Assembly (NCBI GenBank): GCA_001799195.1
Contig: MGSU01000257.1
Location: 1 to 6,441 of the forward strand
DNA: 6,441 nucleotides
Direction: 5' to 3'
DNA from: Deltaproteobacteria bacterium RIFOXYA12_FULL_61_11
GTDB taxonomy: Bacteria > Bdellovibrionota_F > JAHFAK01 > YA12-FULL-61-11
In this document: in pieces, positions 2,206 to 6,278 of the stretch
Layout: the number at the start of each line of letters is the position of its first letter
Position numbering within the stretch: the first letter of the stretch is position 1
Position numbers and translations under genes: made by a program
The notes under the pieces: generated by a model
The model's input: the letters and a program-made list of their open reading frames with translations, nothing else
Told to the model about the DNA's origin: nothing
Databases searched by the model: none

Positions 2206-3663
2206 TTACCTGCCGGCATCCACTCCGGGTGCGTGTTCCGGCTGATCGATGTGATAGTGGTCCAGGATACGGCGCTGGGCTTCGGCATACTTCCGACCAT
2301 CGAGCACGACCCGCCGGCCGGCCGGGGTCTCGAGCTCAAGGACGTGGAAGTCCCCGAGAGGGTGTTCGAACCCGGTCAGGATATTGTCGAGACCGTGGAC
2401 AGGCCGCCCGTTCAGACCGGCTATCACCTCGTTCTCCAGGTTTTCGTAACCGCTGGTGTAGTCGTCCGGGAGGATGTGGGTGATGATCACCACCTTGCGG
2501 GCGAGGTCGTCCTGCGGGGCGCTCCGATCGGCGAGGTAACGGAGGCGCGGCGGTGCGCTCTTCCACCAGGTCTGCCATTGCTCGAGATAGCGCAGGTCCA
2601 GTTCGCGAAAGACCAGACCACCGCGAACGGCGTAGCGGGGCTGGGGATCGAGAGCATGCTGGGGGACGAGGTCCTGGCGGTACTCGAAGGTTTTCCACGG
2701 GATGGTTAGTTCCAGCTCGCGTCCTCCCCGGAACACCGTCACCTTGAATGACTGTCCGCGGTGGTTCCAGTGGTTGAGGTAACCCCCGAAGGGAATGGGT
2801 CCGAAGACCGGGTCGCGGTACATGCCCGAGGAGTCGAGCGCGAAGCCGCCCGCGCGGAGTAAGATATCTCCGGGGAGGAGCACGCCGTGGGCCGGAGTGC
2901 CGGGGACGACCTCGCGGAGGAGTACACCGGCCGGTTCACCGGGAAGACCGAGGTGAGTAGCCAGCGTAGGATCATGGATCTCTTGGTAACGGACCCCGAG
3001 CCGTGCGAAGCCTCGGTCCTTACCGTTCTCGAACTCGGCCAGTCGGTCTTCGATCAAGCGGGAGGGAACGAGCTGGAGCGCATCGTTCTCATACCCGGAG
3101 ATGATACCGAGGATGCGGTTTCCTGCCGAGACGGGGCTACCCGTGGGGACCCCGCTGCTCTTGGCCTCGAGCTGACAAGCAGGTAGCTTGATGCCGCCGA
3201 AGGTCGACCATTCGGGCTCGCAGCGGATCAAGCCTAATCGGTCGCTGCGTCTGGTCTGACCTTCGAGCCAGTGGGCGACGAGCGTATCTTCCTCCACGGG
3301 GAGAGCGGGATCGAGGTGGATCGGCGAGGTGGAGCGAGCAAAGCGACCGTCCTCTACCCGCACCAGGGCGAGATCGGTGTAAAAATCGACGCGCTCTAAA
3401 AGACCGGTGTAGTGGACGACCTCGTCGAGGAAAACGCGGATATAGGTGGAACTCCGCACCAGCGAGGCGGTCGTGAGCACCAGACCGGGACGAATGACCA
3501 CCCCCGCGCCGCTCCTCTGCACCGGGTCGGCCTTGATCCAGGGACGGTGGTCGTCGAAGTCCTGGGTCGTCGCGGTTAGCCGGCACAACCAGGGCAACGG
3601 ACGTTCGGCCGAGGCCTCGACCGAGAGGGAGGCGAGCAGGAGTATCCAGGGGATTGTTCTCAT
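2206..3663 (-). CDS. catalytically degenerate Deg/HtrA-like protein (pseudoprotease) with PDZ domain
   Basis: This 485-residue exported protein is a paralog of the active Deg protease encoded just upstream. Residues 1-19 are a signal peptide with a likely Ala-Ser-Ala cleavage site. Residues 45-215 follow the trypsin-like fold, but the catalytic His position reads T-A-S (Ser67 in VLTTASLV) and the Ser position reads VPTGSP (Thr174 replaces Ser). Only the Asp is kept (Asp97 in YTDLALVRVED). A PDZ domain spans about 218-325 (LGVRYQEI, then GVLLREVVPGTPAHG and LLPGDILLRAGG). Residues 338-485 resemble the paralog's C-terminal region (QPRYAVRGGLVF; ILPDDYTSGYENLENEVIAGLNG). Cys148 and Cys163, absent from the paralog, could form a disulfide. 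The start overlaps the preceding stop by ATGA, so translation is probably coupled. The intact frame and long conserved blocks argue for a functional non-protease (chaperone, adaptor or regulator) rather than a decaying gene; its role is not known to me. Confidence 0.85.
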   Translation of the reverse strand: MRTIPWILLLASLSVEASAERPLPWLCRLTATTQDFDDHRPWIKADPVQRSGAGVVIRPGLVLTTASLVRSSTYIRVFLDEVVHYTGLLERVDFYTDLALVRVEDGRFARSTSPIHLDPALPVEEDTLVAHWLEGQTRRSDRLGLIRCEPEWSTFGGIKLPACQLEAKSSGVPTGSPVSAGNRILGIISGYENDALQLVPSRLIEDRLAEFENGKDRGFARLGVRYQEIHDPTLATHLGLPGEPAGVLLREVVPGTPAHGVLLPGDILLRAGGFALDSSGMYRDPVFGPIPFGGYLNHWNHRGQSFKVTVFRGGRELELTIPWKTFEYRQDLVPQHALDPQPRYAVRGGLVFRELDLRYLEQWQTWWKSAPPRLRYLADRSAPQDDLARKVVIITHILPDDYTSGYENLENEVIAGLNGRPVHGLDNILTGFEHPLGDFHVLELETPAGRRVVLDGRKYAEAQRRILDHYHIDQPEHAPGVDAGR

Positions 3664-5114
3664 AGATTGCGGTCCTTGCTGAGGCCGTAGAGGGTGAGGA
3701 TCTCGGGGTGTCGGCGGCGAGCCTCCTCCGCGTCGAGGACGTCGATGGAACCCGGGATGCTGTATTCGAGGACGTGGCGGGGGACCTGCTGCTCCAGCGC
3801 CGCGGCCAACTCGGCGAGACCGTCGATGCGCCGGCCGTTGACCTTGTCCACGATCATGTTGGAGGTGTAGCTGAGTCTGGCGTTGACCCTGTCTGGGAGG
3901 ACTCTGGTCAGCACGACCGGTTCCCGCAGCTCGGCTTCCGGTTCCAAGAGGGGCAGGGTGAAGAAGTGGTGCAAGAGCTCGTCCTCGGCTCCGACATACC
4001 AGTGAGGACCGAACAACTGGAGAAATTCGCGCTGCAACGGCATGAACACTAGGCCGGCATAGACCAGGTAGCGCGGCTGGAGGTCATAGAGGTTGGAGTA
4101 CTTGCGGTAGCGATCGAGGTCGCGATAGGTGGTCAGGGTGAAGCGCTGGAGCTTCCCCTCCCTCCACACCTCGCAGGGCAGTTCCTTGCCGAGTTGGGCC
4201 TCGTCGAGGACGAGGGTGAAGGGTAGCCGGTGACCGCGGTACAGGATCTTGCCGTCATTACCGATGGCCTTCCCTCCGAGCGAGACGAGGACGTCGCCCG
4301 GACGGAACAGCTTCGACTCGGGGCTGTTCGGCAGGATCTGGTCGACGATCACTCCGCCGACCGAGGGAGGCAATGCTAAAAACTCGCGGTAGGCCTTGCT
4401 CTGCAATTCGGAATAGCGCAACCCGAGGTCCGGGAAGCCGTCGTAGCGGCCGTCGGCAATGTCCTCGAGGACGTGCCGGACCACGGGGATGGGGATGAAG
4501 AACCCGACGTTCTCGAGGCTGCCGATACCCTGGAAGGCGACCCCTACTACCTTGCCGTCCTGGACCACCGGACCTCCGCTGTTGCCGGGATTGATCGCGG
4601 CGTCGGTCTGCACCGAGAGCAGGTACATGGACCCGGGGTGGACGTAGAGGTTGTATTCGATGCGCGAGACCACGCCCTTGGTCATGGAGAGGGATTGACC
4701 ACCCGCGGGGTAGCCGTAGGTGGTGACTACCGAGTGCAGGGCAGGTAGATCCCCGAGCGGCAGTGGTTTGAGACCCTCGAGGAAGGCAGGGTCCTCGGGT
4801 TTGACCACGGCGAGGTCAGCCTCGTGACTCACGAACTCGACCGTGGCGGCCCAACGTCGCGGGTCGAGTCTGCGTTCCAGCTCCAGGCGTTTCGCCCAGC
4901 TCACCACATGGGCGTTGGTCAGGATACGGCCGCCCTCGAGGACGAAACCCGAACCGGTGAAATGCTCCACGTCGTTGGTGTTCCAGGGACTGTAGACGTC
5001 CCAGTCCTGGGCATGGTTGTGCAGCTTGACCACCGATTGCTCGAGCGGTGCTGGTTTTGCCAGGAGTGTCAGGGGGAGGAGAAGGGCACACGCGAGGAGC
5101 AGGGTAGGGGACAT
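3660..5114 (-). CDS. Deg/HtrA-family serine protease with PDZ domain (Deg9-like C-terminus)
   Basis: This 484-residue protein is a secreted serine endoprotease for the periplasm, expected to degrade or refold damaged envelope proteins. A signal peptide covers residues 1-19 (LLLACALLLPLTLLA). The protease domain has the full triad: His69 in ILTNAHVV, Asp100 in SHEADLAVV and Ser179 in NPGNSGGPVV. A PDZ domain lies at about 228-330 (DLGLRYSEL, GVIVDQILPNSPESK, RPGDVLVSLGG). Residues 340-484 (LQPRYLVYAGLVF; VLTRVLPDRVNA; IVDKVNGRRIDGL) match the extra C-terminal PDZ-like region of plant Deg9-type proteases and their bacterial relatives, unlike the two standard PDZ domains of DegP/DegQ. The start at 5114 has GGAGG 4 nt upstream and gives a proper signal peptide; the frame is open back to 5249, but that would bury the signal peptide. 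It is the first gene of a two-gene operon with its inactive paralog. Cellular substrates are unknown. Confidence 0.93.
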   Translation of the reverse strand: MSPTLLLACALLLPLTLLAKPAPLEQSVVKLHNHAQDWDVYSPWNTNDVEHFTGSGFVLEGGRILTNAHVVSWAKRLELERRLDPRRWAATVEFVSHEADLAVVKPEDPAFLEGLKPLPLGDLPALHSVVTTYGYPAGGQSLSMTKGVVSRIEYNLYVHPGSMYLLSVQTDAAINPGNSGGPVVQDGKVVGVAFQGIGSLENVGFFIPIPVVRHVLEDIADGRYDGFPDLGLRYSELQSKAYREFLALPPSVGGVIVDQILPNSPESKLFRPGDVLVSLGGKAIGNDGKILYRGHRLPFTLVLDEAQLGKELPCEVWREGKLQRFTLTTYRDLDRYRKYSNLYDLQPRYLVYAGLVFMPLQREFLQLFGPHWYVGAEDELLHHFFTLPLLEPEAELREPVVLTRVLPDRVNARLSYTSNMIVDKVNGRRIDGLAELAAALEQQVPRHVLEYSIPGSIDVLDAEEARRRHPEILTLYGLSKDRNL

Positions 5115-5155
5115 CGCACCTCCAGGGAATGGAGAGGACCTATGCTGGAAGCGTA

Positions 5156-5185: not shown

Positions 5186-5305
5186 GAGAAACCGTCGCAC
5201 GTTCACTTGTCTGATTGCTCGTACCTGTTCGTCTTTGTGTCGATTGCATGGCGTCACTTTGTCCATGAAGCAGGAAGTACCACTATCCACCTCCCGAACC
5301 GAGGC

Positions 5306-5366: not shown

Positions 5367-6278
5367 ATGAAACCTTCTTCCTATAATCACCTTCGGTTGG
5401 TACTGCTCGGTGTGGTGTGGGGGTCGGCCTTCGTGTCCCTGAAGACCGCCTCGACGGCCTTGACGCCTTCCTGGCTGTTGGTCTCGCGCCTGGGGTTGAC
5501 CACCCTCGCCTTGCTGCCCTTGGCCCTAGTCCGACGGCAGCGGCACCCGCTCGCGGTGAGGTGGAGGGACTTCGCGGTGCTGGTCTTCTTGTCGCTGGTC
5601 GGTCTGACCATTCCCTTCTGGATGGTCAACTGGGCGATCTTGCACCTCGATACCGCCGTGACCTCGATCCTCAACAGCACCATGCCGTTGTTCGTACTGC
5701 CTTTATCCTTCTTTTTGTTGCAGGAGCCGACCAGGCCGCTCCGCCTTCTCGGCGTGCTGCTCGGCTTTGTCGGCGTGGTCGTGCTCAGCGCTCCCCCTGA
5801 TGGCGATTGGAGCGCGGCTCCGCCCTGGCCGGCTCTCTTCGTGGTTCTGGCCGCTTTTTGCTATGCCCTGGGCACGGTGGTCACCCAGCGCTGGCTCCTT
5901 CACCTGGATACCGTGGTGCTCAACCTCTTTCAGTTTGGCCTCGCCGCGCTCTGGGCCACCTTGGCCATGGTGGTGGTGCAAGACCCCCTCCCGGCCTGGC
6001 CGACTCCCTGGGTGTTCCTCTCTCTGCTCCACCTGGGCTTGATCTGTTCCGCCGCGGCCATGTTGGTCTGGCTGGCTCTCTTGCGCGACGCGGGTTCGCC
6101 CTACAGTTCCTTGGTCACCTACCTTATTCCCGTGGTGGCGGTACTCATCGGTTTCCTCGTCCTGGACGAACGCCTGGATACGAAGGCACTGGTCGGTACC
6201 GGACTGGTCCTGGTCGGGGTGCTTCTGGCGGCTACCGTCGGGAACCCGGCTCGAAGCGGGTTGGGACAAACACGCTAG
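5367..6278 (+). CDS. EamA/DMT-family inner-membrane transporter
   Basis: This 303-residue protein is a drug/metabolite-transporter-superfamily permease with two EamA repeats, the usual length and topology for the family. Ten hydrophobic helices can be placed at about 10-27, 34-54, 68-88, 97-118, 125-141, 153-173, 183-204, 213-236, 247-267 and 272-291. The first repeat shows the family pattern in LLGVVWGSAFV near the N-terminus, the N-S-T-M-P-L-F helix 4 motif (103-109) and LLQEP before helix 5. The second repeat shows SLVTYLIPVVAVLIGFLVLDE (approximately 248-268), the matching helix-end acidic motif. Such proteins export or import small metabolites such as amino acids or their analogues; the substrate here cannot be told. 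The start at 5367 lacks a good ribosome binding site but is the only one that keeps helix 1. It is divergent from the protease operon and convergent with the next gene, so probably a single-gene unit. Confidence 0.92.
   Translation: MKPSSYNHLRLVLLGVVWGSAFVSLKTASTALTPSWLLVSRLGLTTLALLPLALVRRQRHPLAVRWRDFAVLVFLSLVGLTIPFWMVNWAILHLDTAVTSILNSTMPLFVLPLSFFLLQEPTRPLRLLGVLLGFVGVVVLSAPPDGDWSAAPPWPALFVVLAAFCYALGTVVTQRWLLHLDTVVLNLFQFGLAALWATLAMVVVQDPLPAWPTPWVFLSLLHLGLICSAAAMLVWLALLRDAGSPYSSLVTYLIPVVAVLIGFLVLDERLDTKALVGTGLVLVGVLLAATVGNPARSGLGQTR
6243..6262. terminator. weak hairpin at the 3' end of the transporter gene
   Basis: AACCCG (6243-6248) pairs with CGGGTT (6257-6262) around 8 nt, overlapping the last codons of the transporter gene and facing the convergent gene beyond. 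No T-run follows on either strand. A second small palindrome, CCGATCGG (6285-6292), fills the gap before the next gene. Confidence 0.25.

Follow-up and report, generated by a model that had tools for sequence, protein, structure and literature searches.

A gene for an exported, predicted active serine protease of the Deg9/Deg2 type (gene A) and, immediately downstream, a gene for a full-length paralog that has lost the catalytic residues (gene B) form a conserved pair, which we collected at 115 loci. Since the same arrangement recurs at these loci, which are distantly related, B is very likely not junk but a partner of A that has been conserved for a long time. On balance, we are inclined to think that A and B are an ancient, co-transcribed duplicate pair in which the dead B protein co-assembles with A as a regulatory or substrate-handling subunit.

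Results

The gene pair and its neighbourhood

The window, that is the whole stretch of 6,441 nucleotides that was analysed, contains the two genes in tandem. The original prediction had described proteins of 484 and 485 residues whose genes overlap in an ATGA, and the open reading frames were found exactly so; the strand, which it had not given, is the minus strand for both. The features of the pair are as follows.

3660..5114, minus strand: gene A, 484 aa, with signal peptide, Trypsin_2, PDZ and PDZ_3; a Deg9/Deg2-type serine protease, predicted to be active
2206..3663, minus strand: gene B, 485 aa, a full-length pseudoprotease partner with the same architecture as gene A
3660..3663, minus strand: ATGA overlap of the stop of A and the start of B; translational coupling probable
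5115..5128, minus strand: GGAGG ribosome-binding-like site ccctggaggtgcgATG, read from the sequence directly 5' of the start of gene A

For gene A there is an alternative in-frame ATG upstream at 5249. The start at 5114 is the likely one, since the GGAGG precedes it and the signal peptide begins there.

The two proteins align throughout, as had been claimed, with 27% identity over 458 columns (BLASTP, E 3e-34). At the triad columns gene A has His69, Asp100 and Ser179, the latter within GNSGGP, and gene B has Ser67, Asp97 and Thr174; the alignment gives the same residues that the original prediction had read. The signal peptide, PDZ domain and C-terminal region said to be shared by both proteins could be recovered as well. 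A Sec-type signal peptide is visible in both by inspection, the C-terminal region is a strong PDZ_3 domain (PF17815; 88.9 bits in A and 92.4 bits in B, Pfam cut-off 22.8), and the PDZ-like region in the middle gives a sub-threshold PDZ_2 match (in gene A 23.9 against a cut-off of 27). The Pfam domain Trypsin_2 scores 84.8 bits in gene A and 25 in gene B, which is below the cut-off of 27.6. We regard gene A as coding for an exported Deg9/Deg2-type protease with an intact triad and predicted activity. Gene B is, on the sequence evidence, a pseudoprotease, i.e. a conserved and selected homolog without catalytic residues.

Several other open reading frames surround the pair. The region 135-787 on the minus strand resembles a type II toxin-antitoxin pair, in which a Phd/YefM-type antitoxin (506-787, PF02604, 39.3 bits) overlaps a PIN-like frame (135-509). 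A 495-aa frame on the plus strand (633-2120) is convergent with the protease pair and has weak, sub-threshold matches to alpha/beta hydrolases (Palm_thioest, PGAP1-like, DUF915). Divergent from gene A, an EamA-family transporter (135.6 bits) lies at 5367-6278 on the plus strand.

Fold and export

The best solved relatives of both A and B are plant Deg9 and Deg2. These are active enzymes of plant organelles or the nucleus, and we know of no pseudoprotease gene adjacent to a plant Deg9 or Deg2 gene. The Arabidopsis proteins (5il9, 5ilb, 4fln) consist of a protease domain, a PDZ domain and a C-terminal PDZ_3 domain, the same as A and B; B differs from them in having no triad. Gene A matches Arabidopsis Deg9 (5il9) with 234.6 bits over residues 19-476, and gene B matches the Deg2/Deg9 chimera (5ilb) with 109.8 bits (phmmer).

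AlphaFold2 models based on the ortholog alignments reached a pLDDT of 92.4 and a pTM of 0.88 for A, and a pLDDT of 89 and a pTM of 0.86 for B. The model of B superposes on the Deg2/Deg9 chimera with a VIA Z of 38.6 over 452 residues (Foldseek TM 0.85) and on Deg9 with a Z of 38.5 over 452 residues, whereas DegP-type chains reach only about 24. According to its predicted structure, B is thus a full-length protein of the Deg9/Deg2 type and not a partial one.

By a simple test of hydrophobicity, the N-terminus is of the export type in 114 of the 115 A proteins and in 108 of the 115 B proteins; a minority of the N-termini in the pairs are lipoprotein-like. At locus L231 (almost certainly Akkermansia muciniphila, see below) B begins, judged by eye, with the lipobox-like LMLLGGC, so that B may be membrane-anchored there and A soluble.

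Conservation of the pair across bacteria

Orthologs were searched for by way of PDZ_3 and of an alignment of gene A. Searching genome contigs with the single B protein gave no matches, since B diverges too fast. The source phylum consists of two genomes, of which the other has no PDZ_3, and therefore the orthologs were taken from other phyla.

In a sample of 386 genomes, mostly from across Bacteria, PDZ_3 was present in 22, and two adjacent PDZ_3 genes were present in five, the source genome included. In each of the other four, the triad is intact in the upstream copy and lost from the downstream one. We then have, in the phylum of one of these genomes, PDZ_3 in 74 out of 194 genomes, among which the coordinates give 42 with two adjacent copies; in two further genomes the copies are separated by a contig end. 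When named genomes were scanned with the gene A alignment, 80 loci were obtained, most of them with B directly downstream.

Together, the collected set holds 115 loci with A first and B immediately downstream; note that a few genomes are counted twice in this number via two collections. The adjacency search that the original prediction had proposed places A directly upstream of B at all of them. Since both the tandem order and the lost triad recur at 115 loci, the arrangement is not due to chance. The description as a coupled, Deg9-like operon with a full-length pseudoprotease paralog holds in these linked loci, where B is full length.

According to the record titles, the pair occurs in Verrucomicrobiota, Planctomycetota (Phycisphaerae, Sedimentisphaerales), Lentisphaeria, Kiritimatiellota, SAR324 and Spirochaetes, with the reservation that several of these labels are doubtful (e.g. 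the 'Akkermansia muciniphila' MAGs of loci L097, L104 and L110). The strain A. muciniphila ATCC BAA-835 almost certainly carries the pair (L231, 2724-6343). A PDZ/DHR/GLGF gene from a paper on bile acids and A. muciniphila, AMUC_RS02540, was dropped as a candidate, its position being mismatched to that of the expected pair.

Linkage of A and B

We could place the start of B in 113 pairs, taking the candidate nearest to the coupled position, a choice that favours small values; by this rule the start lies within -30 to +60 nt of the stop of A in 111 pairs and at -4 in 55. Co-transcription and translational coupling of the two genes are probable from this spacing and from the overlap. Among the collected loci there is no A-clade gene without a full B wherever the contig continues: the A-clade genes that have no full B (L107, L154, L212, L214 and L216) are all at contig ends, and the one complete or nearly complete B that lacks an A (L213/L229) is at a contig end too. 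A third gene recurring beside the pair was sought among the loci, and none was found.

Solo Deg9-like proteases, on the other hand, are common in the related genomes and keep the triad, with rare variants. One unusual variant is the solo protein of L027 (G094), which has HECELAIL at the column of the catalytic Asp, that is an Asp-to-Glu change with His and Ser retained, and GSSGG in place of GNSGG. The solo proteases of L217-L221 (family f266) have open frames of 550-762 codons, longer than usual, and an intact GNSGG. We also noted two short frames with a PDZ_3-like stretch only (L225, 3950-4510, 186 aa; L227, 3929-4351, 140 aa). They score closer to B than to A and are possibly remnants or stand-alone PDZ_3 proteins.

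Evolution and selection

The tree comprised 36 A, 36 B and 17 solo proteins; it was made with a quick method and includes some long B branches. In it, a single branch separates all B proteins from the rest (SH-aLRT 100), and another does so for all A proteins (SH-aLRT 92). One ancient duplication and one inactivation are therefore sufficient to explain the data, and going by this tree the inactivation of B is ancient. The subtrees of A and B look alike, and the distances within A and B are correlated (0.95 over 112 pairs), although a shared species history together with linkage also produces such a correlation. B diverges faster, with a mean distance of 0.70 compared to 0.58 for A.

To describe selection we used independent pairs of close loci with more than 70% identity; omega values from loosely chosen locus pairs were discarded, as the synonymous sites were saturated. 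The median omega is about 0.08 for A and about 0.12 for B, i.e. both genes are under purifying selection. Separated by domain, omega in B is 0.11 for the protease domain, 0.105 for PDZ1 and 0.11 for PDZ_3. A and B do not differ in the conservation of their PDZ regions, whereas the protease domain is looser in B. B is maintained by selection.

The original prediction had named three observations that would speak against it, namely B orthologs with His and Ser regained, frequent frameshifts, or missing linkage to A. None of them was made: the complete H-D-S triad is present in 115 of 115 A proteins and in 0 of 115 B proteins, the B frames run uninterrupted over their full length and evolve under purifying selection, and practically all loci show B linked to A.

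The active site of B

It had also been asked whether the substitutions of His and Ser are conserved. The loss of the intact triad is, at every one of the loci; the replacing residues vary between lineages. The catalytic His is replaced by Asp or Glu in 66 of 115 B proteins (57%). The Asp column holds Asn in 96 (83%) and Asp in only 8, and at the Ser column there is Trp or Tyr in 52 (45%). Elsewhere, 97% of the B proteins have an Asp at the column of A96, and some positions are conserved in more than 90% of the B orthologs, e.g. Asp93, Gly405 and Tyr406 in the numbering of B at this locus. Given these recurrent residues of its own at the triad columns and the strongly conserved positions outside them, the site of B has been remodelled along conserved lines rather than just eroded.

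Discussion

How might the two proteins work together? In our proposal, A would act as an exported Deg9-type protease, and B would be a dedicated non-catalytic paralog exported alongside, which keeps the protease-PDZ-PDZ_3 scaffold and has its catalytic site replaced by conserved residues of its own. The two would co-assemble via the oligomer surfaces of the Deg9 type, either in a mixed oligomer or in a transient complex. The PDZ domains of B may capture or gate substrates, and its dead protease domain would fill a position in the ring and set the activity of A. The physical complex is our inference, and the effect of B may be to activate, restrain or target A. By analogy, a role in regulation or in mixed oligomers, as originally suggested, appears well motivated, given the obligate linkage of A and B and the precedents.

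The Csp proteins of Clostridioides difficile are subtilisin-type proteins of the spore with a fold unrelated to Deg. CspB, CspA and CspC resemble A and B in that pseudoproteases sharing the fold of an active protease serve as partners in signalling; the heterodimer consists of CspC and CspA and reportedly leaves out the active CspB (PMC12880746). The nearest precedents are plant Deg7 and the MamE/MamO pair of magnetotactic bacteria. Deg7 combines an active Deg protease domain with a degenerate one and has four PDZ domains; in AtDeg7 the degenerate domain has a part in trimer formation (PMC3473262). Deg7 is in effect an A-B fusion in one polypeptide, while A and B are separate frames with a stop/start overlap.

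In the case of MamE and MamO, as with A and B, one gene cluster encodes an active protease and a pseudoprotease of the HtrA type. MamO is required for MamE-dependent proteolysis without a catalytic triad of its own, and a physical interaction of the two was not detected (PMC4794232). There are several differences from A and B: MamO has a TauE-like membrane domain, a metal-binding site and a role in magnetite formation, the genes of MamE and MamO are in a large island whereas A and B are a two-gene unit, and such pseudoproteases arose independently in magnetotactic taxa, with no PDZ_3 architecture reported in the parts of the study considered here. A membrane domain, TauE-like or other, was absent from the Pfam scan and from the model of B, which ends with PDZ_3. 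Taken together, MamO and the degenerate domain of Deg7 make both a mixed oligomer and a transient complex of A and B plausible. A paper describing the A-B pair itself was not found among the open-licence PMC papers. HtrA pseudoproteases and pseudoproteases in pairs are already known; those papers contained no two-gene unit of the Deg9 type, spread over several phyla, in which the full-length pseudoprotease is obligate.

Potentially, B could work beside A without forming a complex with it. It would then be a periplasmic chaperone, adaptor or scaffold in its own right, taking misfolded or specific clients via the PDZ domains and co-expressed with A for envelope quality control. Its PDZ1 and PDZ_3 are under the same constraint as in A, the full fold is retained and well predicted, and the faster divergence and looser protease domain of B could fit a role unrelated to the ring of A. 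Even for the precedent of MamE and MamO no interaction was detected, so one protein may depend on the other in function without a mixed oligomer. We nevertheless hold an independent B to be rather unlikely, as a complete or nearly complete B without A was found only at a contig end whereas solo active Deg9-like proteases are common, and as a one-to-one, obligate linkage exceeds what co-regulation needs.

It is also conceivable that the main function of B is not to modulate A but to carry out new chemistry or to bind a new ligand at the old site, be it a metal or a peptide as in MamO, which is a precedent for a new ligand, or by way of new catalytic residues. The recurrent Asp, Asn, Trp/Tyr and acidic residues mean that the site has not decayed at random. 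The replacements, however, differ between lineages (Ser/Asp/Thr in B at this locus), and no alternative nucleophile or set of metal ligands is invariant across B, which makes this explanation improbable. Finally, that B is a functionless duplicate, a pseudogene on its way out, would agree with the lost triad residues and the looser protease domain, but we reject it on the selection and conservation data, since one ancient B clade with full-length open frames, an omega of about 0.12 and specific residues conserved above 90% has been retained across several phyla.

Returning to co-assembly of A and B, we extend it only tentatively, and with slightly less than even confidence, to a whole class. 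It would be a widespread and undescribed kind of protease of the bacterial envelope, shared by Verrucomicrobiota, Planctomycetota and further phyla, Akkermansia muciniphila included, in which each active Deg9-type protease of the A clade would need a pseudoprotease paralog of its own, encoded separately, in a mixed ring, with its activity regulated or selected by substrate.

HtrA/Deg proteases are classically homo-oligomers that are gated by their own PDZ domains. If our reading is true, a conserved two-gene system whose second, full-length product is inactive would build and gate such a protease differently, and it is spread over Verrucomicrobiota, Planctomycetota and other lineages. In bacteria the pair would correspond to plant Deg7, with the two parts encoded by separate genes, and it would add to MamE and MamO a second case from an unrelated context. 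Its presence in A. muciniphila would make the idea testable in a cultured, medically relevant commensal.
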